Position numbers and translations under genes: made by a program. From Candidatus Thiodiazotropha sp. LNASS1 (GTDB lineage: Bacteria; Pseudomonadota; Gammaproteobacteria; Chromatiales; Chromatiaceae), in contig NZ_OZ156465.1 in the NCBI RefSeq assembly GCF_964212655.1, forward strand, positions 4,650,001 through 4,714,000: a stretch of 64,000 nucleotides of DNA. The letters are read 5' to 3'. Numbering within the stretch: the stretch's first letter is position 1; each line of letters begins with the position of its first letter. Shown here one piece after another: positions 14,468 through 64,000 of this stretch. The notes under the pieces were generated by a model that was not told where the DNA came from, did not search any database, and saw nothing but the letters and a program-made list of their open reading frames with translations.

Positions 14468-15799
14468 TTAACTGTCGACATCCGATGCAAAAATGCGTTC
14501 CCGCCATTCGTCGGTGCGCGCCAGCAGTTGTTGCGTATCCAGGGTTGTCAGACTACCCGCACTGACAACGGGCCGGCCAGCCACCCAAACATGGGTAACC
14601 TGCTCACGGCCGGCGGCATAGACCAGTTGAGAGATGGGGTGGTAGGTTGGCAGGGTATTGATCCGGTTCAGATCCACCGCCACTATGTCGGCCGACTTTC
14701 CGGGCTCGAGTGATCCTGTCTCTTGCTGCAGGCCAAGCGCCCGGGCGCCATTGATGGTAGCCATCGAGAGCGCCTTGGCGGCGGGCAGCGTGCTGGCGTT
14801 ATTCGCCACCCCTTTGGCCAGCAGGGCGGCGCTGCGCATCTCACTGAACATATCCAGATCGTTATTACTGGCTGCGCCATCAGTACCCAGCGCCACATTG
14901 ATCCCCGCTTCCATCAGTTCAGCGACCGGGCAGAATCCGCTCGCCAGTTTCAGATTCGACTCGGGGCAGTGCACCACATGCCCGCCACTGGCCGCGAACA
15001 GCTCGATCTCATCACCTTCGAGATGGGTCATGTGCACCGCTGCCAGCGCAGGCGACAGCAGTTCCAGTTCGTTCAACCTGGCCAACGGGCGGGTGTCATG
15101 GTGTTGCAGGCCCTGCACGATTTCGTCATGGGTTTCGTGGACATGCATATGGATAGGTATCTCAAGCTCATCCGCCAGGATGCGGATTCGTTCCAATATC
15201 CCATTCCCGACAGAGTAGGGGGCGTGGGGTGCGAATGCGGTATGAATGATGGGATTGGTGCGAAATTGATCGTGTACCTGCAGGCCTTTATGCAGGTAGT
15301 CGTCACCGTCACTGGCCCAGGCGGAGGGGAAATCGATGGCGATCAGGCCGAGTACTGCCCGGATACCCGCACTGTTCGCAACCCGTCCGGTAATATCGGG
15401 AAAAAAATACATGTCGTTGAAGCAGGTGGTACCGCCCAGGAGCATCTCTGCAATCGCCATTTGGCTGCCGTCATGGATGAATTCCTCACTGACCCATTTG
15501 GCCTCCGCGGGCCATATATGCTCGTTCAGCCAGGTCATCAGCGGCATGTCATCGGCCAGTCCTCTGAGTAGGGCCATCGCTGCATGGGTATGGGTATTGA
15601 TCAGACCGGGTATCAGCGCATGACCCGGCAGATTGGTTTCCTGTGTCGACTGATATTGGGACGCAACCTGCTCGGTGGGTAATATGGCGGCTATGCGACC
15701 CCGGTTAACCACCAGTGTATGGTTGGTATACACCAGGTTTTCAGGGACCACGGGAATGATCCATTCGGCATGGATGAGTTGATCGACCTGTTCAGGCAT
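14468..15799 (-). CDS. mtaD: 5-methylthioadenosine/S-adenosylhomocysteine deaminase
   Basis: 443-residue amidohydrolase. Metal ligands are visible in the early NTHTHAAMALLRG and in the later MHVHETHDE and the LGTDGAASNNDLDM loop. Family knowledge: it deaminates MTA and SAH, feeding methionine salvage through the inosine derivative. It is divergent from mtnA (127-bp gap), the next enzyme family of salvage, as in Pseudomonas. A related TRZ/ATZ-type hydrolase with another substrate cannot be excluded. Confidence 0.88.
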   Translation of the reverse strand: MPEQVDQLIHAEWIIPVVPENLVYTNHTLVVNRGRIAAILPTEQVASQYQSTQETNLPGHALIPGLINTHTHAAMALLRGLADDMPLMTWLNEHIWPAEAKWVSEEFIHDGSQMAIAEMLLGGTTCFNDMYFFPDITGRVANSAGIRAVLGLIAIDFPSAWASDGDDYLHKGLQVHDQFRTNPIIHTAFAPHAPYSVGNGILERIRILADELEIPIHMHVHETHDEIVQGLQHHDTRPLARLNELELLSPALAAVHMTHLEGDEIELFAASGGHVVHCPESNLKLASGFCPVAELMEAGINVALGTDGAASNNDLDMFSEMRSAALLAKGVANNASTLPAAKALSMATINGARALGLQQETGSLEPGKSADIVAVDLNRINTLPTYHPISQLVYAAGREQVTHVWVAGRPVVSAGSLTTLDTQQLLARTDEWRERIFASDVDS

Positions 15800-15926
15800 C
15801 GTCTTATCTCTGTTAATTATGAGTATTGTGAGACACTACACGTGCACCCGGAATAAATGCAACGACAGCTTAGCAGTTGATAACCCGAATATTTAACAAG
15901 CAACAGACTTTTCGCAGTGGCTAATT

Positions 15927-17006
15927 ATGGATCTCTCCCAATACATGACTCAGGTAACGGCCGACGACGCGATCGTTTGGCGGGATGGACATCTGTTCCT
16001 GCTGGATCAGCGCAAGCTGCCCGGCGAGGTGACCTTCCTGGAATTGAACAACGCGGCCGAAACCGCCCGGGCGATTACAGACATGGTGGTGCGCGGTGCG
16101 CCGGCGATTGGCATCACCGCAGCGTATGGTGTGGTTCTGGCCGGAGGCATGGCCTTCCAGTCATCCGCAGAGCATTGGAAGGAGGTTCTCAAGGCCGACC
16201 TTGAATGCCTTAAACGATCCCGTCCAACCGCGGCAAATCTCTTTTGGGCGCTGGGCAGGATGGAGGTGCTGATAAAGGGTCTGCCTGAAGCCGGAGATCC
16301 CAGGGAGGCGCTGTTGCAAGAGGCCTTGGCGATCCATAAAGACGATATCAAGGCAAACCGGCATATGGGGGAGCTGGGTGCCTCCCTGCTGGATGTCGAT
16401 AGCGGTGTCATCACCCATTGCAACGCCGGTGCCCTCGCCACCGGCGGATACGGTACTGCGCTGGGAGTGATTCGATCCGCCTATAAGCGGGGACTGATTC
16501 GGCAGGTCTTCGCGGATGAGACCCGGCCCTGGCTGCAGGGAGCGCGCCTGACCGCCTGGGAGCTGTTGCAGGACGGTATACCTGTCACTCTCCTGGCCGA
16601 TGGGGCGGCCGCTCATCGCATGGCCCAAGGGGGCGTCGACTGGATCATTGTGGGATCGGACCGGATCGCGGCAAACGGTGACGTGGCGAACAAGATCGGC
16701 ACATACAGCCTGGCAGTGGCAGCCAAGTACCATGGTGTAAAGGTGATGGTGGCGGCGCCTACCTCAACCATCGATATGGGTATCGCTTGTGGCAGCGAGA
16801 TACCTATCGAGGTAAGGGGTGAAGATGAGTTGCTCTCCTGCGGGGGGCGTCAGATTGCCGCGAACGGTGCGGGGGTATGGAATCCGGTGTTCGATATCAC
16901 CCCGGCTGAATTGGTTGATGCGATTGTCACAGAAAGAGGCGTTGTCCTTTCGCCAAATGAGAAAAAGATAGAAAAAATGATGGCGAATACGCCTGAGAGC
17001 CTCTGA
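15927..17006 (+). CDS. mtnA: Methylthioribose-1-phosphate isomerase
   Basis: 359 residues. Converts methylthioribose-1-phosphate to the ribulose form in methionine salvage. The catalytic cysteine lies in [14 protein letters not shown] and the catalytic aspartate in [18 protein letters not shown]. The tail [15 protein letters not shown] is typical. It is preceded by the divergent deaminase and followed, after 113 bp, by gyrA, again the Pseudomonas order. Confidence 0.96.
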
Positions 17007-17119
17007 AAACGGATTTCAGGCGTTTTTTATACAGCACAGTGTAGGGGGCTATGGTACAATGCGCTTTTTCTGACGCCCCACTGTGTTAGTGGGGGCGATA
17101 GCAAAAGACAACGAGCCAG

Positions 17120-19696
17120 ATGACCGAATTCGCCAAAGAAGTACTCCCAGTCAATCTCGAAGACGAGATGCGGCAATCCTACCTGGACTATGCCATGAGC
17201 GTAATCGTCGGCCGGGCCCTGCCCGACGTGCGTGACGGACTCAAGCCTGTCCATCGCCGCGTGCTCTATGCGATGAATGAACTGGGTAATGATTGGAACA
17301 AGCCCTACAAGAAATCGGCGCGTATCGTGGGCGATGTGATCGGTAAATACCATCCCCATGGCGATACCGCCGTCTACGACACCATCGTCCGCATGGCCCA
17401 GCCATTTTCCATGCGCTATATGCTTGTCGATGGACAGGGAAATTTCGGATCGGTGGACGGGGACTCCCCCGCGGCGATGCGTTATACCGAAGTGCGTATG
17501 GCGCGTATCGCCCACACCATGCTGGACGACCTGGACAAGGAGACGGTCGATTTCGTTGCCAATTACGATGAAACGGAACGGGAGCCGGCCGTTTTACCGG
17601 CGCGGATTCCCAACCTGTTGGTCAATGGATCGGCCGGTATTGCGGTCGGTATGGCAACCAATGTGCCGCCGCACAATATTACTGAAGTAGTCGATGCCTG
17701 TATTGCGGTAATCGATGATCCGGAGATCTATATCGATCAGCTGATGTCCCATCTTCCAGGCCCCGATTTTCCCACGGCGGGCCTGATCAATGGCGCCAGC
17801 GGTATCAAGGAGGCCTATCATACCGGGCGTGGCAGGATCTATATGCGTGCCCGCACCGAGATTGAGACGGATGACAACAACGGCAAGCAGACCATCATCG
17901 TCAATGAGCTGCCCTATCAGGTAAACAAGGCGCGCCTTATCGAAAAGATCGCCGAGTTGGTGAAGGAGAAACGGATCGAGGGTATCACCGAATTGCGTGA
18001 CGAGTCGGACAAGGAGGGGATGCGCATCGTCATCGAACTGCGCCGGGGCGAGGTGGCGGAGGTGGTACTCAACAACCTCTACCAACAGACTGCCATGCAG
18101 AGTGTGTTCGGCATCAACATGGTGGCACTGGTGGATGGCCGTCCACGGCTGCTCAATCTCAAACAACTGCTTGAGTTCTTCATCCGTCACCGCCGCGAAG
18201 TGGTGACCCGGCGCACCCTGTTCGAGCTGCGCAAAGCACGGGACAGGGCTCATGTGTTGGAAGGCCAGGCAGTGGCGCTGGCCAACATCGATGAAGTCAT
18301 TCAATTGATAAAACAGGCGGCCAATCCGGCGGAGGCGAAGAGCGCGCTTCTGGCCCGTTACTGGCAATCGGAAACCGTTGAATCAATGCTTCAACGTGCG
18401 GGTGCCGCCAGTACCCGGCCTGAGGAGCTGTCTGATCAGTTCGGTCTTACCGAGCAGGGATATCGTCTGACCGAAGTGCAGGCTCAGGCCATCCTCGATC
18501 TGCGACTGCACCGCTTAACGGGCCTTGAGCAGGATAAAATCATCAAGGAATACGAGGAGCTGCTGGATAAAATTGCCGATCTTCTCGATATTCTCGGCAG
18601 TCCCGACCGACTGATGCAGGTGATTCGGGAAGAGCTGCTTGAAATACGTGAACAGTATGGCGATGAGCGCCGTACCGAGATCATCGAAAACCGTCTCGAC
18701 CTTACGCTCGAGGATCTGATCACCGAAGAGGATGTGGTGGTGACCCTCTCCCATGCGGGCTATGCAAAAGCTCAGCCGGTCAGTACCTATCAGGCCCAGC
18801 GAAGGGGGGGTAAGGGTAAGATCGCCACCGCAACCAAGGATGAGGATTTCGTCGACAAGCTGTTCGTTGCCAGCACTCACGATACCATTCTCTGTTTCTC
18901 CAACATGGGTAAGGTCTACTGGTTGAAGGTCTATGAACTGCCCCAGGCCGGGCGCAATGCCCGCGGCAAACCGATCGTCAACCTGTTGCCGTTGGATGGG
19001 GAGGAGCAGATCAATGCCATCTTGCCGGTACGCGAATACGAGGCCAATCGTTATGTCTTCATGGCGACCAGCTCCGGCACTGTGAAAAAGACCTCGCTGG
19101 AGGCCTTCTCCAGGCCCAGGGCCAACGGCATCATTGCCGTCGACCTGCGCGACGGGGACAAGCTGGTCGGGGTTGCCATTACCGACGGTGAACAGGATAT
19201 CCTCCTCTTCAGCAGCAGTGGTAAAGCGGTTCGATTCTCCGAATCCAAGGTCAGGGCGATGGGCAGGACCGCCTGTGGTGTCAGGGGGATCCGGTTGGAA
19301 GAGGAACATCAGGTCGTCTCCCTGATCGTTGCCGCCGAAGGTGATGTATTGACCGTTACAGAAAACGGGTACGGCAAACGAACGGCCATCGAGGAGTATC
19401 CGGTGCACGGCCGGGGAGGCCAGGGTGTCATTTCGATTCAGACCTCGGAGCGTAACGGTACTGTTGTCGGTGCCGTACAGGTGGTCGATGAAGACGAAGT
19501 GATGATGATCTCCGATGGCGGCACTCTGGTGCGGAATCGGGTCAGCGAAATTTCGCAGATGGGTCGTAATACCCAGGGTGTGATCATGATTCGTCTCAGC
19601 AGCGATGAACGCCTGATCGGGGTCGAACGGGTAGAAAATCTCGACACCGATACAGACGACGATGCGGATCCGGATCAAACCGATATGGACGATTGA
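17120..19696 (+). CDS. gyrA: DNA gyrase subunit A
   Basis: 858 residues. The breakage-reunion domain starts with [34 protein letters not shown]; the catalytic tyrosine is in [10 protein letters not shown]. The GyrA box QAQRRGGKG marks the DNA-wrapping C-terminal beta-pinwheel, which ends in an acidic tail ([17 protein letters not shown]). In the quinolone-resistance region the protein reads [10 protein letters not shown]: Thr at the position of E. coli Ser83 and Asp at 87, the natural state in Pseudomonas and not evidence of selection. Confidence 0.98.
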
Positions 19697-54863: not shown

Positions 54864-57497
54864 ATGAGAGCGGTTGAAACAGAGAATTCAATCGAGTCGT
54901 TCGAGATTTTTCCGTGGGACAAAAATTTCGAAACAGGTATCACTCTAATCGATGAACAGCACCAGAAACTGGTGCAAATACTCAATCACCTTGCCGTTCA
55001 TCTGGCAAACCGTTCAAGCAAAAAAATCCTGAATGAGGTTTTTGATGAGCTGTTTGATTATGCAGACTATCACTTCAAGGCAGAAGAGGATGTGTGGCGG
55101 AAACACCTCCTCAACGATGAATCGTTAAATTCCCACGAAAAAACCCACAAGTCCTTTATTTCATATGTCATTGAACTCAGGGGCAGGGAGGGCCGCGAGG
55201 ACTATGATCAGGTCATGCAGGATACGGTCGGATTTCTGACCCACTGGCTTGCCTACCATATCCTGGATAACGATAAACGCATGGCCAAAGTGATTCTTGC
55301 CATTGAAAACGGCAAAACTGTCACCCAGGCCAAGCAGTCGGCTCACGAAGAGATGAGTGGCTCAATGCAGCTGCTCATAGAGACAGTGTTAAAAATGTAC
55401 GACAGTCTCTCGTCGCGAACCATGGACCTGATGCGTGAGAAAACGCTGCGCAAGCAGGCTGAACAGGCATTGCTTGAAAACGAGGAAAAGTGGCGTTTTG
55501 TTTTTGAAAGCAACCATGAAGAGGTCTGGGATTGGGATATTCAGAAGAGCAACGAGACACATCAAAGTGTCGAAAACATACTCGTGCATATTATCGACCG
55601 TGAACTTGTTCAGGATTTTAGTTCATCCAGGATTCATCCGGATGATATCGCCCAGGTAAAGCATCATTTGCAGTTGCATCTGGATGACAAAACGCCATTT
55701 TTCACTAGCAAACATCGACTGCTGCATACAGATGGTTCGTGGACATGGGTGCTTAGCCGGGGAAAAGTCGTCAGCCGGAATGAACAGGGTTTGGCATTAC
55801 GCATGGTTGGAACCCATTCCGACATCACCGAGCGTGAGCTGGCGTCAATCATATTCCGCGCAAGCAGTCAGGGGATGATGATTTCTGATAAAGATAACCG
55901 GATTATCAGCGTGAATCCGGCATTCACCGAAATAACCGGTTATCCGCCTGCCGAGGTCATTGGCAAAGATCCCAAATTCCTTGCATCTGAGAGGAACAGT
56001 AAAGAGCTGTACCGCAAAATGTGGGAGGAAATACATGAAAGCGGTCATTGGCAAGCTGAACTCTGGAACAGAAACAGGGAGGGAAGCGAATTCTTTTCTT
56101 ACCTGAGTATCAACACTGTATTGGATGATCAAAATCAGATTGATCACTACATAGGGCTTTTGTCGGATATTACCGAGAAGAAAATAAGTGAAGACCTGGT
56201 GCTCAGGCATGCAAATTACGATGTCCTGACAAATCTGCCAAATCGGCGCATGTTTTTCACTCTTCTGGATAATGAAATCAAGCGAACAAAGCGCAGGCAG
56301 GCCCAATTTGGGCTCTTCTTTATTGATCTTGACCATTTCAAGGAAGTGAATGACACACTCAGTCATGAAATTGGTGATAGGCTTCTGATTGACGCCACAC
56401 GTCGCATGCAAAACTGTATTAGGGAGTCAGATGCAATCGCACGTATTGGCGGCGATGAGTTCGCCATGATTATCAGTGAACTGGGGTACACTTCAAGGCT
56501 GGACGGTATTGCCCAAGAGATCATTGATGAGCTCAGTAAGCCGTTCAAGGTCGATGTCAATCAGATATATATTTCTGCCAGTATCGGCATCACCATTTAC
56601 CCTGATGATGGAGAAGACGCATCGAGTCTTCTTAAAAATGCAGACCAGGCGATGTATCGTGCCAAGAGGTCCGGCCGCAGCCGTTTCAGTTATTTCACCA
56701 CAGAAATGCAGGCAGCTTCGGTCAAGCGACAGTTATTGCTGGGAGATTTACGCAATGCACTATCCAGGAATCAATTCGAGCTGGTTTACCAGCCGATAAT
56801 AGACCTGTCCAACGGATCGGTTTGCAAAGCAGAAGCATTGTTACGCTGGAAACACCCGGAAAGAGGAACGGTATTCCCTGCCGAGTTTATTTCCCTGGCA
56901 GAAGAGTCTGGGCTTATTATCGATATAGGCAACTGGGTTTTTGATGAGGCCATACGGCAACTGGTAGAATGGTCAGACAGAACCAGTGAAGGATTCCAGA
57001 TCAGTATCAACAAATCGCCCTTGCAGTTCCGTAACCGAAATGCGCATCAACAGTGGCTGCAGCAGTTGAAAAAGCTGCAATTGCATGGAAGCAGTGTAGT
57101 CGTCGAAATTACTGAAAACCTGCTGATGGAGAATGAAAGCAGTGTGCATGAGCAGTTGCTGGTGTTCCGGGATCATAGTATCGAGGTGGCGCTGGATGAC
57201 TTCGGAACCGGCTACTCCTCACTCTCTTATCTCAAGGACTTTCATATTGATTTCATCAAGATTGACCAATCATTCGTGCGAAACCTTGAAGAAGATTCGC
57301 AGGAAATGATTCTATGTGAAGCCATGATTGCAATGGCTCACAAGCTGGGAATTAAGGTTATAGCCGAGGGTGTTGAAACTGAAAGCCAGATGCGGTTATT
57401 AAAGCACTCCGGATGCGATTATGCACAGGGTTATTTTTATTCGAAACCTGTTAGTGCTGGAGAATTTGAACATTATCTCCCTGATGCTGAAGACTGA
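54864..57497 (+). CDS. Hemerythrin-PAS-PAS-GGDEF-EAL c-di-GMP enzyme
   Basis: 877 residues. The N-terminal bacteriohemerythrin domain (about 14-145) has all di-iron ligands: H33, H70, E74, H91, H95, H132 and D137. Two PAS domains follow (about 205-330 and 335-440). The GGDEF domain has intact GGDEF, with the RESD inhibitory site five residues ahead. The EAL domain keeps KAEALLRW, ITENLL, DDFGTGYSS and KIDQSF. It is predicted to be a bifunctional synthase/phosphodiesterase whose balance is set by oxygen or another diatomic ligand. Cytoplasmic; no membrane helix seen. Confidence 0.94.
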   Translation: MRAVETENSIESFEIFPWDKNFETGITLIDEQHQKLVQILNHLAVHLANRSSKKILNEVFDELFDYADYHFKAEEDVWRKHLLNDESLNSHEKTHKSFISYVIELRGREGREDYDQVMQDTVGFLTHWLAYHILDNDKRMAKVILAIENGKTVTQAKQSAHEEMSGSMQLLIETVLKMYDSLSSRTMDLMREKTLRKQAEQALLENEEKWRFVFESNHEEVWDWDIQKSNETHQSVENILVHIIDRELVQDFSSSRIHPDDIAQVKHHLQLHLDDKTPFFTSKHRLLHTDGSWTWVLSRGKVVSRNEQGLALRMVGTHSDITERELASIIFRASSQGMMISDKDNRIISVNPAFTEITGYPPAEVIGKDPKFLASERNSKELYRKMWEEIHESGHWQAELWNRNREGSEFFSYLSINTVLDDQNQIDHYIGLLSDITEKKISEDLVLRHANYDVLTNLPNRRMFFTLLDNEIKRTKRRQAQFGLFFIDLDHFKEVNDTLSHEIGDRLLIDATRRMQNCIRESDAIARIGGDEFAMIISELGYTSRLDGIAQEIIDELSKPFKVDVNQIYISASIGITIYPDDGEDASSLLKNADQAMYRAKRSGRSRFSYFTTEMQAASVKRQLLLGDLRNALSRNQFELVYQPIIDLSNGSVCKAEALLRWKHPERGTVFPAEFISLAEESGLIIDIGNWVFDEAIRQLVEWSDRTSEGFQISINKSPLQFRNRNAHQQWLQQLKKLQLHGSSVVVEITENLLMENESSVHEQLLVFRDHSIEVALDDFGTGYSSLSYLKDFHIDFIKIDQSFVRNLEEDSQEMILCEAMIAMAHKLGIKVIAEGVETESQMRLLKHSGCDYAQGYFYSKPVSAGEFEHYLPDAED

Positions 57498-57594: not shown

Positions 57595-58266
57595 CTATTT
57601 TTCCAGGGTATAAGCCATGGCGTAGTGAATCGGCATCGGGCATTCGATCTGAGAAGGTGGCTGTGGTAACGGTTGAGCGGCATCGATGGCTTTACCTGCC
57701 GCTTTTCGCAACAGGCCATGTGGCCCTTTAATGGTCAGTTTTGATACCTTACCGTCACAGGAGAGGTTGAAGCTGACCTCGATCTTTCCCTCCATATTCC
57801 TGCGGCGCGCGACTGTTGGGTAGTATTTTTTTGCTTCAATCACGGCCAGTAATTGTGCCAGATACTGTTCCCGCAGGTTGACCCTGGGTTGAACCCGTGG
57901 AGGCGGCGGTTGTCTTGCAAGCTGTTTCTCCTCAGGGGGAGTGACGGGTTTCGTTTCAGCGACAACTGGCTTGGGTATGGCTTTGCTCCGGATCTTTTTT
58001 TTGATTTTCGGTTTCGGCTTCGGTTTCGGTTTGGGCTTTGGCTTGACGACCTGTTTTTCAACGGTCTTCGGCGGTTGTATGACCTCGGGAATGATTTCCG
58101 GGAGTGGTTTTTGAAATGTCAGTTGCACCAGTAGCTGTGGTTTTTCGATCTGCTCGACGGCGGCCTGGGTGACCATTTTGTCCGACCATTCTGTGACAAT
58201 CATAAGGTGCAGCAGCAGAGAGAACGACAGTGCCAGCAGACGCCAAGCGGTACTTGTTTTGATCAT
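57595..58266 (-). CDS. tonB: TonB energy-transducing protein
   Basis: 223 residues. One N-terminal membrane anchor (about 7-25), a Pro/Lys stretch (KPKPKPKPKPKPKIKKK), and a C-terminal TonB domain with YLAQLLAVIEAKKYYPTVARRRNMEGKIEVSF. Transmits proton-motive energy to the outer-membrane receptor. ATG overlaps the exbD stop as ATGA. Last gene of the seven-gene operon beginning with the receptor at 61876. Confidence 0.93.
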   Translation of the reverse strand: MIKTSTAWRLLALSFSLLLHLMIVTEWSDKMVTQAAVEQIEKPQLLVQLTFQKPLPEIIPEVIQPPKTVEKQVVKPKPKPKPKPKPKIKKKIRSKAIPKPVVAETKPVTPPEEKQLARQPPPPRVQPRVNLREQYLAQLLAVIEAKKYYPTVARRRNMEGKIEVSFNLSCDGKVSKLTIKGPHGLLRKAAGKAIDAAQPLPQPPSQIECPMPIHYAMAYTLEK

Positions 58267-58664
58267 GGCTTCTCTGTGAGAATATCGAGGGATTCGGCAC
58301 CGGCACTACGTGCAGCATCGATCACCTTCACCCCCGCACCGAAGGCAGCGGCCTGGTCGCCCTTCAATCTTACATAACGCTTGTTGGGGGCGTGCAGGGC
58401 ACCGCGCAGTGTATCCTCCAGGTTGTCCAGTGTTGCCGCCCGGCCATCCACCAGCAGTTCTCCATTGGGTAACAGGGCAACCTCCACCGTGTCATCATCA
58501 ACACTTGGTTGGCTGCTTTCCGCCACCGGCAGTTGTATATCGATGGCTTCGTCTTCAATGAAGTGGGCCGTGAGCATGAAAAAGACCAACAGCAGGAACA
58601 CGATATCAATCAAGGGCGTGAGATTGAGTACCTGGCTGGAGCGTCCTTTGTACTCATACTCCAT
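58263..58664 (-). CDS. exbD: ExbD biopolymer transport protein
   Basis: 133 residues. N-terminal LNLTPLIDIVFLLLVFFMLTAHF with the functional aspartate in the single membrane helix, then a periplasmic domain. It overlaps exbB by 11 bp and tonB by 4 bp. Works with ExbB as the proton-driven motor for TonB. Confidence 0.94.
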   Translation of the reverse strand: MEYEYKGRSSQVLNLTPLIDIVFLLLVFFMLTAHFIEDEAIDIQLPVAESSQPSVDDDTVEVALLPNGELLVDGRAATLDNLEDTLRGALHAPNKRYVRLKGDQAAAFGAGVKVIDAARSAGAESLDILTEKP

Positions 58665-59316
58665 CGGTGATGTTCTCCCACTGGTGAGTCTGTTGCACCT
58701 CCGTGGTGAGTGCGGGTTCGAGACTACGTCTCTCCAGTAGCAGCGCGATACAACGGCTTATTTTCTTCGCCCGGCGTTCGACACTCCCTTCCAGAAAATG
58801 CAGCATCAGCAACAGCGGTATGGCAACCGCGAGTCCCACACCGGTAGTGATCATGGCCTCCCAGATCCCACCGGCCAGGGCCTGGGCATCCACTTTGCCC
58901 CCCGCCTGCTCGATAACCATGAAGGCCTTGATCATGCCGGTAATGGTGCCCAGCAGACCAAGCAGGGGAGCGGTGTTGCCGAGTATGCCTAGGGTGCGCA
59001 GGCCGAACTCCATGCGCTGGATCTCCTCGCCACGCACTCGCTCACCCACGCCTCGAAGGTCTTTCACATCCTCGGATTGTGCCTCTACAACGGCACGGAT
59101 CACGTTTGCTTCCGGTCCCTTGAGTGCTGCAATCTGCTGTTGGGCCTGTGAGTCATCGAGTAGTTGTCCCAGTCTTGCCATCCAGCTTTTGGGCAGCTGC
59201 CGCAGGCGTAGAAACAGAAAATAGCGTTCCAGCACAATGGCCAGTCCTATGGATGAGTAGAGGGCAAGGATCCAGATAACCGGCCCGCCCTTGGCAAGGA
59301 GTTCAGTGATGTTCAT
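58654..59316 (-). CDS. exbB: ExbB/TolQ/MotA-family proton channel
   Basis: 220 residues from ATG 59316, whose last bases overlap the previous stop (ATGA). Three membrane segments: GPVIWILALYSSIGLAIVLERYF, then LGILGNTAPLLGLLGTITGMI and ITTGVGLAVAIPLLLMLHFL. Proton channel of the TonB motor; coupled on both sides in the operon. Confidence 0.94.
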   Translation of the reverse strand: MNITELLAKGGPVIWILALYSSIGLAIVLERYFLFLRLRQLPKSWMARLGQLLDDSQAQQQIAALKGPEANVIRAVVEAQSEDVKDLRGVGERVRGEEIQRMEFGLRTLGILGNTAPLLGLLGTITGMIKAFMVIEQAGGKVDAQALAGGIWEAMITTGVGLAVAIPLLLMLHFLEGSVERRAKKISRCIALLLERRSLEPALTTEVQQTHQWENITDGV

Positions 59317-60023
59317 GGTGTGATCCATCCTAATGCGGTGGCACAACCGATCATGACGAGCAGTCCGATGCTGGTGTTTTCCAGGGCGGTGCGGTGGTGT
59401 GCCAGGTGATGTCTGATCTGATGCCCGAAATGGGCCACGCCGAAGGCAAACAAAAGGGTTGGAAAAATGACTGCGCCCATGGCGAAAGCGACACCCAGGG
59501 ATGCTCCAGAGAGGATACTGGCGCTTGTAGCCGCGGCAAGGATTATCGTTGTCAGCGGCGCGCAGGGGTTGAATGCCATGCCCAGCCCCATCAAGTAGAG
59601 GCCCCCAGGCAGACCGCCATGGCTCATGTGACGGTTCTTCTGAGGTGGTATGTTCTCGAATGTTACGGTGCGCGTGCTGGGGCAGGCCGATTTACATCCG
59701 TTGTTGCGGCGTCGCCACAGAATGGAGAGCGCCACCAAAATCGTAGCGCCACCCAATAACCAGCGAGCCCAGGGGCCGGCTACCAGATCTTCCACCCAGA
59801 GACCGGACCAACCCGCCGCTCCCGCCAGTAAAGTGTATCCACTGATGCGTCCCAGGGAGAATGGGAGCAAGGTGCGCCAGGCGCCTGCAATACCATTGTC
59901 GTTGGTGGTGAAGACAGGCCCCAGATAGGGAAGACAGGCGACATTGCATGGGCCGGCACCGAAACTGAGCCCCAGCAACAGTGCGGCACCGAAGCTGAGG
60001 CTGACCGGTTCAATGGGTATCAT
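59313..60023 (-). CDS. CcdA/DsbD-like (SafE-type) membrane protein
   Basis: 236 residues from ATG 60023. About six membrane helices. Two cysteine motifs are placed as in the CcdA/DsbD electron-transfer family: FGAGPCNVACLPYLGPVF in the first helix and GLGMAFNPCAPLTTII in the fourth; the loop also has CKSACPST. Family members pass electrons across the membrane or carry sulfite/metals. Overlaps both neighbours by 4 bp, so it works with the polyferredoxin protein before it and the TonB motor after it. Exact cargo unknown. Confidence 0.75.
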   Translation of the reverse strand: MIPIEPVSLSFGAALLLGLSFGAGPCNVACLPYLGPVFTTNDNGIAGAWRTLLPFSLGRISGYTLLAGAAGWSGLWVEDLVAGPWARWLLGGATILVALSILWRRRNNGCKSACPSTRTVTFENIPPQKNRHMSHGGLPGGLYLMGLGMAFNPCAPLTTIILAAATSASILSGASLGVAFAMGAVIFPTLLFAFGVAHFGHQIRHHLAHHRTALENTSIGLLVMIGCATALGWITP

Positions 60024-61075
60024 GACGATTCTGCCTTCGCTGACATGGGCCGTTTTTTGTACCAGGCGATGAGATTGTCTATTTCCCATTGGGTTTGCTG
60101 TTTCTTACGCTGCTTGAAGTATTGCGGACTGGAACTGAAGATCGGGAACAGGGTGTATTTCAGCTGCAGCACATCCTTGTCAGGACAGAATTCCACGCAG
60201 CGGCCACAAAGCGTACAGTCTTCGAAGGTCACATTACGGCTCTCCATGTCGGTATGGATCTCATGTATATCCATGGGGCAGGCCTTGGCGCAAAGGCCGC
60301 AGCGATCGCAACGAGGCGTACCATTCTTTATCAGACGCAGCAGACCGATTTTGCGAAAAACCGCATGCAGGGCAAGCATGGGGCAGATGCGGCAGAAGGG
60401 CTGGCGCACGGTCAGCGCCAGCGCAATCATCAGACCGAAAATAAAATCCCCCAGCAATGACATCACGATGGTGGTTGTGTTGGCGGTGTCCAGATAGAGT
60501 TGCGTGGTTTCACCGGTAGCCAGGGTGGTAAGTATGCGACTGGGACAGATGCGACAGAAGGGATCGCCCAGATCGTGATTCAGCATGCCCATGCCGGTTA
60601 GCAGGGGAAATGCGAAGACCAGCAGAAGCAAGATGAACCACTTCACCGGGCGAATTCGGCTGACCAGATCTCGGGAGAGTGACTCGTGACGCTGCAGACC
60701 GAGTTTCTGACCAATAATCTGGAGGATCTCCTGGAAGGTGCCCAATGGGCAGATCCAGCCACAGAAGGCCTTGTTCAACACTACGAAAAAGAGCAGGAAA
60801 GTGCCCAGGGTAATGAGCGTGGGCATGACGCCCATCAGCAGGTTTCCCCCTTTGGCGATTGCCTCGCCCAGGCGGTGATCCATCTGGTGCTGGATCGGTA
60901 TCAAGGTACATAGATCGGAGCCTTGAAAATCGTAAGCACAGCTCAGGGCGGGTAGGGCACCGCTGATCTTATCTTCCAGATAGTAACCGGTGATGAGCCC
61001 GCCGTAGACAAAAAAGATAAAGGCGCCAAGCTGTACGATTTTGCGTAATACGGAAAGGTTGATCGGATTACTCAT
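60020..61075 (-). CDS. NapH/NosR/CcoG-like 4Fe-4S membrane protein
   Basis: 351 residues from ATG 61075 with GGAAAGGAG upstream. Four to five membrane helices, Cys motifs CGWICPLGTFQE, CRICPSR and CRICPML at membrane ends, then two classical 4Fe-4S motifs (CDRCGLCAKACP; CTLCGRCVEFCP) in the C-terminal cytoplasmic part. Such proteins pass electrons from quinol or cytoplasmic donors to a periplasmic acceptor. Within this operon it probably reduces an imported metal or its periplasmic carrier. Confidence 0.85.
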   Translation of the reverse strand: MSNPINLSVLRKIVQLGAFIFFVYGGLITGYYLEDKISGALPALSCAYDFQGSDLCTLIPIQHQMDHRLGEAIAKGGNLLMGVMPTLITLGTFLLFFVVLNKAFCGWICPLGTFQEILQIIGQKLGLQRHESLSRDLVSRIRPVKWFILLLLVFAFPLLTGMGMLNHDLGDPFCRICPSRILTTLATGETTQLYLDTANTTTIVMSLLGDFIFGLMIALALTVRQPFCRICPMLALHAVFRKIGLLRLIKNGTPRCDRCGLCAKACPMDIHEIHTDMESRNVTFEDCTLCGRCVEFCPDKDVLQLKYTLFPIFSSSPQYFKQRKKQQTQWEIDNLIAWYKKRPMSAKAESS

Positions 61076-61863
61076 AGCTCCTTTCCTCCACTTCTCTTGA
61101 TACGGCCAAGGAAACCACCGGCGATAAAACCGATGCCGACCACCAATAGACCCAATCGGGTTGATTGCCAATGAGCGGGATTGACACGATAGTCGGCATC
61201 GAGTTGAGTGGTGTAGCGCCTATCCCCTTCAAGGTATTCGCTGCTGACGGTGAATTGACCGAGCCTTTTATCCCGTTCTCCTTCGATCATGCCGGGAAAG
61301 TCGTCGGGGATCTGAAAAGAGACCCGACCGTGGGAATCGGTAGTCGATGATAGCTGGGTGCCGTTGGCGGTATTCAGTCTGACCTCAAGGTCATTGACCG
61401 GTTTACCGTTGAAACGGACCAAATAACCCCAGGTCTGTAATGAGTGATAGCGATAGTGCTCCCGTGGAATCGGATCGGGTACAATCTCAAATTCGGTCTT
61501 TTGTTTCGCCACCAGTTGGGAGGGACTCTGTTTGCTGGGGCGTCCGAACCTGTACTCGTAACGAATCACTGCCTCTTTGTGATCACCCCAATCCTTTTCC
61601 GCCACGATGGCGTGGTAGTTGTCGATTCCGGTCATCGGTATCGTCACAGCATTGTGATCGAGGGTGAGTTGTTGGGTTGAGAGATCCGGTTTCCAGAGAG
61701 TGATGATAGCGCCATCACCATTCTCCAGGACAATTCGCTTTTCGCCGCGGTGATCATGGGCGGGTTGGGGGGGCTTGGTTGCGTCCCCGCCCTCCGCACC
61801 GATTGCAACACCGGCGAGAGAGAGCATATAGGCAGGGATAACAACACCTAACAGTTGATGCAT
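61072..61863 (-). CDS. Periplasmic DUF4198-like protein with C-terminal anchor
   Basis: 263 residues. Signal peptide (MHQLLGVVIPAYMLSLAGVAIGA), a histidine-containing segment (PAHDHRGEKR), then a carboxypeptidase-regulatory/Ig-like fold (LVRFNGKPVNDLEVRLNT...TDSHGRVSFQIPDDFPG). A membrane helix near the C-terminus (LGLLVVGIGFIAGGFLG) faces inward with basic residues. DUF4198-type proteins occur with nickel/cobalt transporters. It starts 12 bp after the receptor gene and overlaps the polyferredoxin gene by 4 bp. Confidence 0.75.
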   Translation of the reverse strand: MHQLLGVVIPAYMLSLAGVAIGAEGGDATKPPQPAHDHRGEKRIVLENGDGAIITLWKPDLSTQQLTLDHNAVTIPMTGIDNYHAIVAEKDWGDHKEAVIRYEYRFGRPSKQSPSQLVAKQKTEFEIVPDPIPREHYRYHSLQTWGYLVRFNGKPVNDLEVRLNTANGTQLSSTTDSHGRVSFQIPDDFPGMIEGERDKRLGQFTVSSEYLEGDRRYTTQLDADYRVNPAHWQSTRLGLLVVGIGFIAGGFLGRIKRSGGKEL

Positions 61864-61875
61864 GGGATGCTTTCC

Positions 61876-64000
61876 TTAAAATTTATAGGTGTAACTCAGC
61901 ATGGCGCTGCGCGGAGAGGCAGCCGAGAAGGTCTTATCGCCGCTGGTGCTCTTCTTGACTTCGAGGGCGTAGAGCTTGTCGAACAGGTTTTCCACGTTCA
62001 GTGAGAGAGCGTGAGAACCGGTTTGATAACTCAGCAACAGGTTCGTGACAAAATCATAGCCGCCATACTTTTCCGTATTGGCATTGTCGACGTAGTAGCT
62101 GCCCCAGCTGTTGCTGCGTAATACCGCTTTGAAACCGGCCGGGTGACTGTAGCCCATGCCGAGGCCGTATTGTTGCCTGGGTATGAAGGGAAGCTGATTG
62201 CCGGAGCGATCGACCGGTGTTTGGGTTCGGCCTGTACGCACCAACTCCTCAAAGTCAGTGAAGCTGTAGTCGCTGTAAGCAAAACTGCCTTCCAGCCAGA
62301 AATGGCGGTTGAGATCGTAGCGCCCGCTTAACTCCAATCCCTTCTTCAACGTCTCGCCGGCATTTTGAAACTCTGTGGTCAGATCCTCATTCAATACCGA
62401 AACGATCTCGTCACTGACCGTGGTGCGGTAGAGGGCCAGGTCGAAGGACCATGCTTGAGCACGCCCCTTCAAACCGATCTCCACATTGCGTGCGGTGGCG
62501 GCATCAAGTTTCGGGTTGCTCTGAATCTCCGACTCCGATGGGACCTGTCCCGACTGGGCGACGACAGTGTAAAGATTCAACAAATTGCTGAGTTCATAGG
62601 TCAGGCCCAGCTTGGGTGAGAAGAGGTTGAAGGTCTTATCTGTATTGGTGATCTCCGGGGTATCGAAGAAGGTATAGCTTGCGGCGCCCCAGCTGTATTC
62701 GCCATAGGCGGTATTGTCGATATCGAAGTGGTTGCGATCGTAACGAAAGCCGATGTCGAGGGTGGTGCGTCGATTCGGTTGCAGGGTCTCCTGGATAAAG
62801 AAACCGTACAATGTATTAGTCGCATCCTCCTCCTCGAGTAATTCGCCGGCTTCATCGGAGTTGGTATGCAGGATGGTTTCAGGCCCCATCGGATTCCAGG
62901 GGGGCGGCGGGCTGGTTTCAACATCCGCGTAGGTGAATTTTTTTGCCCCTTCAGTGTTGTCGCGCCGGGCGGTCACGCCTGCAACCAGGGTACTGGGGCC
63001 CCAGAGTTGGTGCTTGTAGGCCATCTCGAGGTCTGTGCCGAGCACGAGCGTGCCGGGATTGTCGTTGATTGCGCCGGTGACCGGATGGTAATGGTCCCAG
63101 TGATTGGCGTAGATACGCGGTTTCAGGGTCAGGTCGCCCATCTCCTGTTCATAGCGGGAGTTGAAGAACCAGATGGTCGAGTAACGGCCGCTGTGCTGCC
63201 AGGGACTGCTGGTGGTATCTTTCTGCTCTCCACTTTCGAGGTAGCTTTCGAATTCGCTCTCATCCATGGACCCCGGGATCTGCAGATCCGCCTCGTGATA
63301 GCTCAGCTCAGATTCCAGGGTGGCGCCGCTATCGAGCAGATAACCGTGTTTGAATGCGAGCTGCTTGGACTCGAATTCATTCCATTCCCGCCAGTTGTTA
63401 TCGCTCTTACGGTAGGAGGCCGTGAGAGAGTAGGCATTGCTGTCATCGAGATCACCAGCAAGACGGCCATGCAGATTGCCTTGACCGAACTCACCGACAC
63501 CCAGTTTGATGCGGTTGCTGTCGGTATCGAACACCGACTTGGAAATGATCTGAATGGTGCCGCCGGAGGAACCGGCACCGAACAGTGATCCAGGCCCTTT
63601 GGTGATCTCGATGCGCTCGATATCCTGGGTATCGATAAAGTCGAAACGGGAGAAGCTGTCCGGGTCGGTCATCGGTACGCCATCGCGGATGACCATGATC
63701 TCCCGAACGCCATAATTGGCCTTCTGCCCGGCACCGCGGATGATAAGACGGCTGTCATAGGCAGAATTCTTGGAGTTGATCAGAACGCCGGGGCTGCCCT
63801 GGATGGCGTCCTTGATATTGAACATTTTTTCGCTTTCGATGCGCTCGGCATCGATCACGTCGATGGAACCGGCAACATCCTGGGTGCGTCGTTCGACGCG
63901 GGAGGCGGTGACACTGATGATGTCATATTCTTCATCGGTATCTGGCTCTGCAACTTCATTCTCATCAGCGGCGGATATGCTGAGATGAAAAAGGGTGAGA
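61876..64000 (-). CDS. TonB-dependent outer-membrane receptor (N-terminal edge outside window)
   Basis: An open reading frame to the window edge, 707 residues visible. Near the edge the translation gives the end of a signal peptide (LFHLSISAADE), a TonB box-like EEYDIISVTASR, the plug domain (MFNIKDAIQGSPGVLINSK...IMVIRDGVPMTDPDSFSRFD... EITKGPGSLFGAGSSGG) and a long beta-barrel ending in aromatic YTYKF. Substrate not identifiable. It is the first gene of the operon, followed by proteins that could process or reduce the imported ligand and by its own TonB motor. Confidence 0.93.
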   Translation of the reverse strand, partial: LTLFHLSISAADENEVAEPDTDEEYDIISVTASRVERRTQDVAGSIDVIDAERIESEKMFNIKDAIQGSPGVLINSKNSAYDSRLIIRGAGQKANYGVREIMVIRDGVPMTDPDSFSRFDFIDTQDIERIEITKGPGSLFGAGSSGGTIQIISKSVFDTDSNRIKLGVGEFGQGNLHGRLAGDLDDSNAYSLTASYRKSDNNWREWNEFESKQLAFKHGYLLDSGATLESELSYHEADLQIPGSMDESEFESYLESGEQKDTTSSPWQHSGRYSTIWFFNSRYEQEMGDLTLKPRIYANHWDHYHPVTGAINDNPGTLVLGTDLEMAYKHQLWGPSTLVAGVTARRDNTEGAKKFTYADVETSPPPPWNPMGPETILHTNSDEAGELLEEEDATNTLYGFFIQETLQPNRRTTLDIGFRYDRNHFDIDNTAYGEYSWGAASYTFFDTPEITNTDKTFNLFSPKLGLTYELSNLLNLYTVVAQSGQVPSESEIQSNPKLDAATARNVEIGLKGRAQAWSFDLALYRTTVSDEIVSVLNEDLTTEFQNAGETLKKGLELSGRYDLNRHFWLEGSFAYSDYSFTDFEELVRTGRTQTPVDRSGNQLPFIPRQQYGLGMGYSHPAGFKAVLRSNSWGSYYVDNANTEKYGGYDFVTNLLLSYQTGSHALSLNVENLFDKLYALEVKKSTSGDKTFSAASPRSAMLSYTYKF

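Follow-up and report, generated by a model that had tools for sequence, protein, structure and literature searches.

A seven-gene TonB operon of Candidatus Thiodiazotropha, its core shared by many bacterial families, appears to be an undescribed route for importing and reducing a metal, probably iron

What would a bacterium take up with a TonB-dependent receptor whose operon also encodes two membrane electron-transfer proteins? The question is raised by a 64,000-nucleotide stretch of Candidatus Thiodiazotropha sp. LNASS1 (hereafter the window; G000:C1:4650001-4714000, from a single-contig genome of 4.75 Mb; G, C and L numbers designate genomes, contigs and loci), at whose far end lies a minus-strand operon of seven genes. 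A first-pass annotation, made from the sequence alone, had proposed that an oxidised metal or other ligand is imported by the receptor, bound in the periplasm and reduced, the inner membrane being crossed by one of the operon's own proteins. We find that many bacterial families share the core of this operon, and that it appears to be an undescribed route by which a metal, probably iron, is imported and reduced. The reading we favor, to which we give a probability of roughly 0.57, is a TonB-driven system dedicated to metal acquisition, with reduction in the periplasm as one of its own steps. Co-conservation of the genes, a metal-binding fold and the lack of an ATP-binding cassette (ABC) importer agree with the earlier proposal, while its last step, import by a SafE-like protein, did not hold up.

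Open reading frames (ORFs) and Pfam domains bear out the seven-gene layout. In order of transcription, the minus strand encodes a TonB-dependent receptor of 724 amino acids (aa) (61876..64000 within the window, with its start codon at window position 64050, L002:11051, 50 bp past the edge; Plug 75.8 and barrel 145.3 bits); a 263-aa DUF4198-fold periplasmic protein of predicted metal-binding type with a signal peptide and a C-terminal membrane helix (DUF, 61072..61863); a 351-aa NapH-like membrane polyferredoxin, recognized by its Fer4_5 and Fer4 matches, hydrophobicity and cysteine conservation (PFD, 60020..61075); a 236-aa DsbD_2/CcdA-like membrane protein, putatively of thiol transfer (CCD, 59313..60023); an ExbB-type proton channel of 220 aa (58654..59316; PF01618, 96.7 bits); ExbD, 133 aa (58263..58664; PF02472, 101.6 bits); and TonB, 223 aa (57595..58266; PF03544, 43.9 bits). 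The TonB_C, ExbD, MotA_ExbB, DsbD_2, Fer4_5, Fer4, Plug and TonB barrel matches all lie above their cut-offs. A gap of 12 bp (61864-61875) separates the receptor from DUF. The later genes overlap as first described, by a 4-bp ATGA at 61075-61072 (DUF/PFD), 60023-60020 (PFD/CCD), 59316-59313 (CCD/ExbB) and 58266-58263 (ExbD/TonB), and by 11 bp at 58664-58654 (ExbB/ExbD). The gene past TonB, which ends at 57497, sits on the opposite strand, so the operon looks complete. Neither a FecCD permease nor any other ABC importer was found by Pfam among the seven proteins, as had been noted, and no RNA family reached its gathering score anywhere in the window.

To follow this arrangement beyond the window, a genome collection was scanned with PFD, giving 27 loci, and a DUF profile of 14 rows (A1) was run against 369 genomes from the class and 299 from the phylum, overlapping draws that both contain the window's genome, with 15 and 34 matches, respectively. 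The profile searches listed 52 places, of which 40 were analyzed together with their surroundings (5 to 20 kb); the twelve left out are the window (twice), five short loci (G208:C237, G556, G586, G539 and G562), in which PFD also adjoins DUF, and the matches in G407, G605, G547 and G647 with the second one in G448 (E 1e-10 to 6e-4). With L056 dropped as lying, judging by length, on the same contig as L004, the final set holds 67 loci, including the window. Where DUF alone had led to the locus (39 cases), PFD is the neighbour of DUF every time (37 by the position rule; L066 and L067 by coordinates, their ORF calls overlapping), CCD is present in 35 and a receptor lies upstream in 33. Across the 67 loci, DUF occurs in 65 (61 strong matches and 4 weak ones, of a sister version described below), CCD in 62, with three of the five misses at a contig edge, and the complete set of three motor genes, with low thresholds on the score, lies within 8 kb in 43. 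A receptor lies upstream on the same strand in 58 by the position rule; the misses comprise three contig edges, L066 and L067, which have a receptor by coordinates, L068, where it is divergent, L089, where it is downstream, and L061 and L070, with none adjacent. Since the gene order recurs through 67 loci, the arrangement is not due to chance, and the middle genes are co-conserved with a receptor in most of these loci, the point on which the first-pass annotation had staked its proposal. In a plasmid collection, PFD had a single relative (threshold E 1e-10) and DUF had none (threshold E 1e-3).

Counted by family, the position rule places the receptor directly upstream of the DUF-PFD-CCD trio in 16 of the 19 families that carry it; in the other three it is upstream by coordinates, downstream, or, in family f15, not adjacent. 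This recurrence speaks against PFD and CCD being a module for assembly or respiration that shares no more than a transcript with a TonB receptor, a very improbable reading to which NapH-like proteins lend some color, several of those studied being linked to oxidoreductases of respiration (PMC8238504). Receptors close to that of the window (>1000 bits) occur in L058, L065, L071, L084-L086 and others, while those of other lineages reach about 100 bits; in L022-L029 the receptors are 21-32% identical to it over parts, compared with 59-70% for PFD. The window's PFD is matched at 97% identity in Candidatus Thiodiazotropha endolucinida and at 98% in a Ctena symbiont. Because the trio stays together across this range, the receptor seems exchangeable and DUF-PFD-CCD is the core of the operon.

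Could this core carry electrons to the periplasm? PFD has four hydrophobic, predicted membrane segments and two ferredoxin motifs, and if the ferredoxin end is cytoplasmic, the two outward loops would hold C46/C56/H63/H67 and H167/C174/C177. All 65 aligned copies (from 64 of the 67 loci and from Sulfurovum) have C46, C56, H63, C174 and C177, and L059, L064 and L067, dropped at ORF picking, have the cysteine motifs by pattern match. H67 is found in 60 of the 65, the five copies without it being of the sister version. PFD resembles NapH and NapH-like polyferredoxins in its Fer4_5 motif, membrane helices and two [4Fe-4S] ferredoxin motifs, but differs in the extra C46/C56 and C174/C177, all four lacking in E. 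coli NapH, in an operon without nap genes, and in its scores against the NapH models TIGR02163 (74.1 bits, cut-off 213) and PRK09477.1 (69 bits, cut-off 234), which do not make it a NapH equivalogue. Among five other Fer4_5 proteins of the same genome, four have no cysteine ahead of the first CxxxCP motif and the fifth has two. CCD matches DsbD_2 (PF13386) at 69.3 bits (cut-off 24.9), and its cysteines C26, C30 and C154 are kept in 61, 62 and 61 of 62 copies, respectively. Judged from sequence, these features point to thiol electron transfer; we therefore rejected the role of a SafE-like inner-membrane importer that CCD had been given. No second pair of DsbD_2 and Fer4_5 matches was found in the genome, and profile searches of solved-structure sequences yielded no convincing match to DUF or CCD and, in the case of PFD, short ferredoxin matches alone.

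The third core protein would hold the metal or hand it on. By sequence, DUF scores 19 bits against Pfam DUF4198 (PF10670), below the gathering cut-off of 34, and 13 of the 24 members of a DUF set (A4) match that family at E 0.01 (best 1.7e-6). Its predicted fold matches solved DUF4198 members over residues 37-227, among them the metal-binding Zcp (PDB 9mhj and kin) and an Ni-bound DUF4198. From Zcp and the Ideonella DUF4198 protein (PDB 9gcb), which share this fold, DUF differs by its 15-18% identity, its sub-cut-off Pfam score and its C-terminal membrane anchor. The label "DUF4198-like" of the first-pass annotation thus holds by fold and is marginal by sequence, and the role of metal binder or chaperone proposed there finds support in the predicted fold. 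Histidines H36, H84 and H136, predicted metal ligands to set beside H29/H31/H142 of Zcp, occur in 43, 58 and 53 of 59 type A copies.

A metal-binding fold argues against the import of an organic or heme-like ligand (e.g., a disulfide, a quinone or heme), reduced in the periplasm with the metal site merely assisting. CcdA-like proteins typically supply thiol electrons, in line with such a ligand, and the receptor models give it some room: for the window receptor, the best NCBIfam model is the siderophore model TIGR01783 (198.9 bits, under the curated cut-off of 223.5), with the heme model TIGR01785 second, while the copper model TIGR01778 (cut-off 472 bits) is not in the best 25 of 27 models. 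Among nine operon receptors from other loci, the siderophore model is top for all, the heme model second for six, and the copper model not listed at E 1e-10. Against this ligand, apart from a small protein described below, the minority of neighbour genes annotated include no additional gene family found repeatedly within the operons of several families, although a heme or thiol gene may lie among the rest; we consider this ligand improbable.

If the cargo is a metal, which one is it? Since the operon has no ABC importer, we propose that the freed metal would enter through a general importer such as FeoB. FeoB and FecCD were searched in 36 carrier genomes and 32 others (carriers G208, G489, G493, G539, G552, G556, G562, G586, G407 and G647 were left out). 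FeoB (E <= 1e-75) was found in 29 of 36 carriers vs. 14 of 32 others (Fisher p 0.002, uncorrected for kinship), and in most members searched of 15 of the 19 carrier families. A strong FecCD permease is missing from 12 of 36 carriers vs. 5 of 32 others, and 11 of these 12 carriers have full FeoB. The window's genome has 11 receptor matches, a single full FeoB, preceded by a Fur-like box, and one strong FecCD match at 3151644, about 1.56 Mb from the operon and 2 kb from a different receptor. In carrier G146, the quartet is followed downstream by a VIT1-like gene (L062:6104-7153; 27.7 bits, just below the cut-off of 28.1), and the contig also carries, at 7 kb from the DUF match, a full FeoB (G146:C28:76290-78371).

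Several results weigh against periplasmic reduction of iron. The FeoB contrast ignores kinship and draws its 32 comparison genomes from the head of lists rather than at random, two of them (G547 and G605) having weak DUF matches; 7 of 36 carriers do without full FeoB, which is therefore no requirement; a FecCD permease is present in 24 of 36 carriers, and the FecCD contrast is not significant (p 0.16). An AlphaFold model of PFD from 26 sequences (mean confidence, pLDDT, of 38) was too poor to show whether the loop cysteines meet and was not used. Solved or studied DUF4198 proteins are tied to Ni or Zn. Regulation lends no backing either: in scans of 60 upstream regions with consensus motifs and 20 shuffles each, where 2.9 regions are expected to beat all shuffles, Fur gave 3, FNR 5, Zur 1, NikR 0, CueR 1 and IscR-type 2, so that no site for any of these six, among them the regulators suggested in the first-pass annotation (Fur, NikR, CueR, Zur), stands out. 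The window's operon itself has no Fur-like box. The Fur scan has some but limited power, since a like scan of 1000-base feoB upstreams flags 5 of 11, including that of the window's genome. Near-consensus Fur boxes in this genome amount to three rows at two places, with one in the backward control, and the listed portion of an upstream DNA alignment of 18 close relatives is free of wide conserved blocks. Iron is therefore probably the cargo by analogy and FeoB, without help from regulation.

The same architecture could serve Ni, Zn, Co or Cu, the carriers protecting or resetting cysteine ligands rather than reducing the metal, or reducing Cu(II) to Cu(I). The metals bound by solved DUF4198-fold proteins and the lack of a Fur box fit this alternative. 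So does the pairing of a polyferredoxin gene with a DsbD_2 gene, which resembles that of CcoG-type cupric reduction. In L075, the operon adjoins a receptor (15298-17571, directly upstream of its ExbB gene) with an ACGNHMNP motif and a TonB-copper match of 121.8 bits, below the cut-off of 472, and receptors clustering with it lie near the operons of L080 and L090. Finally, ten loci of family f200 (L073:10284-10814; L075-L083) have a small extra protein between receptor and DUF, Cys/His-rich by eye in L073 and close there to the LTXXQ metal-stress family (23.6 bits, just under the cut-off of 24.3), with no family match for the L082 copy. On the other side stand the NikR, Zur and CueR counts, with no enrichment, the preference of all ten operon receptors for the siderophore model with the copper model unlisted at the thresholds used, and the fact that Ni and Zn require no reduction. 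We regard this alternative as possible but rather unlikely.

Under periplasmic reduction of iron, the receptor, powered by its own ExbB-ExbD-TonB, would let a complexed metal in its oxidised state (most likely a ferric chelate) into the periplasm, where the membrane-anchored DUF would hold the metal or pass it on. PFD would move electrons from the cytoplasm or the quinol pool via [4Fe-4S] clusters to a periplasmic Cys/His site, reducing the metal, and CCD would keep the PFD loop cysteines reduced. Such a system would suggest a function for the recurrent DUF4198-like family and for the PFD clade of polyferredoxins, and would explain TonB-receptor metal use in bacteria without a clear FecCD-type permease, such as the 12 carriers above.

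A sister version of the operon adds a further component. In L068, L069, L095 and L096 (a Sulfurovum plasmid), an HGD-D protein comes after PFD and a DUF domain of weak similarity, and BadF-type ATPases come next in L069, L095 and L096, the three of these loci scanned for an ATPase; L070 has a BadF domain and no HGD-D match, and genome G084 carries both operon versions. The HGD-D proteins of L069 and L096 match PDB 7yyl/6eno at E 7e-69 and 9e-61, far better than benzoyl-CoA reductase or CoA-dehydratase subunits (best E 1e-20 and 9e-18). We take 6eno and 7yyl, under the PDB name "Dehydratase family protein", to represent the double-cubane cluster protein and its ATPase, 6eno being the double-cubane protein. 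Double-cubane proteins perform ATP-driven low-potential reductions; their natural role is, to our knowledge, unsettled, and we know of no link to metal uptake. Close relatives of this protein stand right after PFD in the sister operons, while the window's operon has none. Tentatively, and with some doubt, one may see here a group of TonB-coupled metal importers whose cargo is reduced on an iron-sulfur membrane protein, at a periplasmic site of four cysteines. In an ATP-boosted branch of this group, the double-cubane protein and ATPase would push very low-potential electrons through PFD and strip iron from ferric complexes that ordinary reductants leave intact. If so, the sister operon would give the double-cubane protein a testable physiological task. 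On the Sulfurovum mangrovi plasmid, a single ORF of 722 aa (L096:9822-11990) fuses a Fer4_5 membrane part with a DUF4198-type domain (20.3 bits, below cut-off), a point in favor of the reading we prefer.

Around the window's operon, 412 bp separate the receptor start from a long upstream gene (L002:11464-15294, 1276 aa) with two similar tandem halves, by eye secreted and beta-propeller-like; the gene on the strand opposite TonB (54864-57497) appears by eye to encode a hemerythrin-like/PAS/GGDEF/EAL-type signalling protein.

How does this operon compare with known systems? In the open-licence literature we found relatives and no description of this gene set, in keeping with the first-pass suggestion that the system is undescribed. 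An Acidithiobacillus transcriptome has a receptor, TonB, ExbB, ExbD and a 4Fe-4S protein up on electrodes, which may belong to this operon or to another; Shewanella SO1188 was rejected as a lead, being a PepSY protein. DUF4198 also occurs in PepSY/DUF2271/ApbE clusters that PMC8238504, PMC12004947 and PMC7190382 link to iron reduction, PMC3751524 being a further source on them. Like those flavinylated clusters, for which passages of PMC8238504 propose periplasmic iron reduction, the operon combines a membrane electron-transfer protein, a secreted DUF4198 protein (here DUF) and a TonB-type gene, which they sometimes have. Unlike them, it has no PepSY (no match in the seven proteins at E 0.1) and no FMN-binding, DUF2271 or ApbE domain, in the seven proteins or in 28 selected proteins from other loci, and its electrons would pass through NapH-like iron-sulfur and CcdA-like proteins instead. 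With HiuABC/FoxB-type ferrisiderophore reduction it shares a TonB receptor and an inner-membrane reductase (here a putative one) in an operon without ABC importer, FeoAB being proposed there for Fe(II); HiuB and FoxB, however, are PepSY proteins with heme sites, from an operon without polyferredoxin, DUF4198 or CcdA-like protein (PMC13001220). If our reading is correct, an iron-sulfur route would join the PepSY and flavinylated proteins among the known routes of periplasmic metal reduction.

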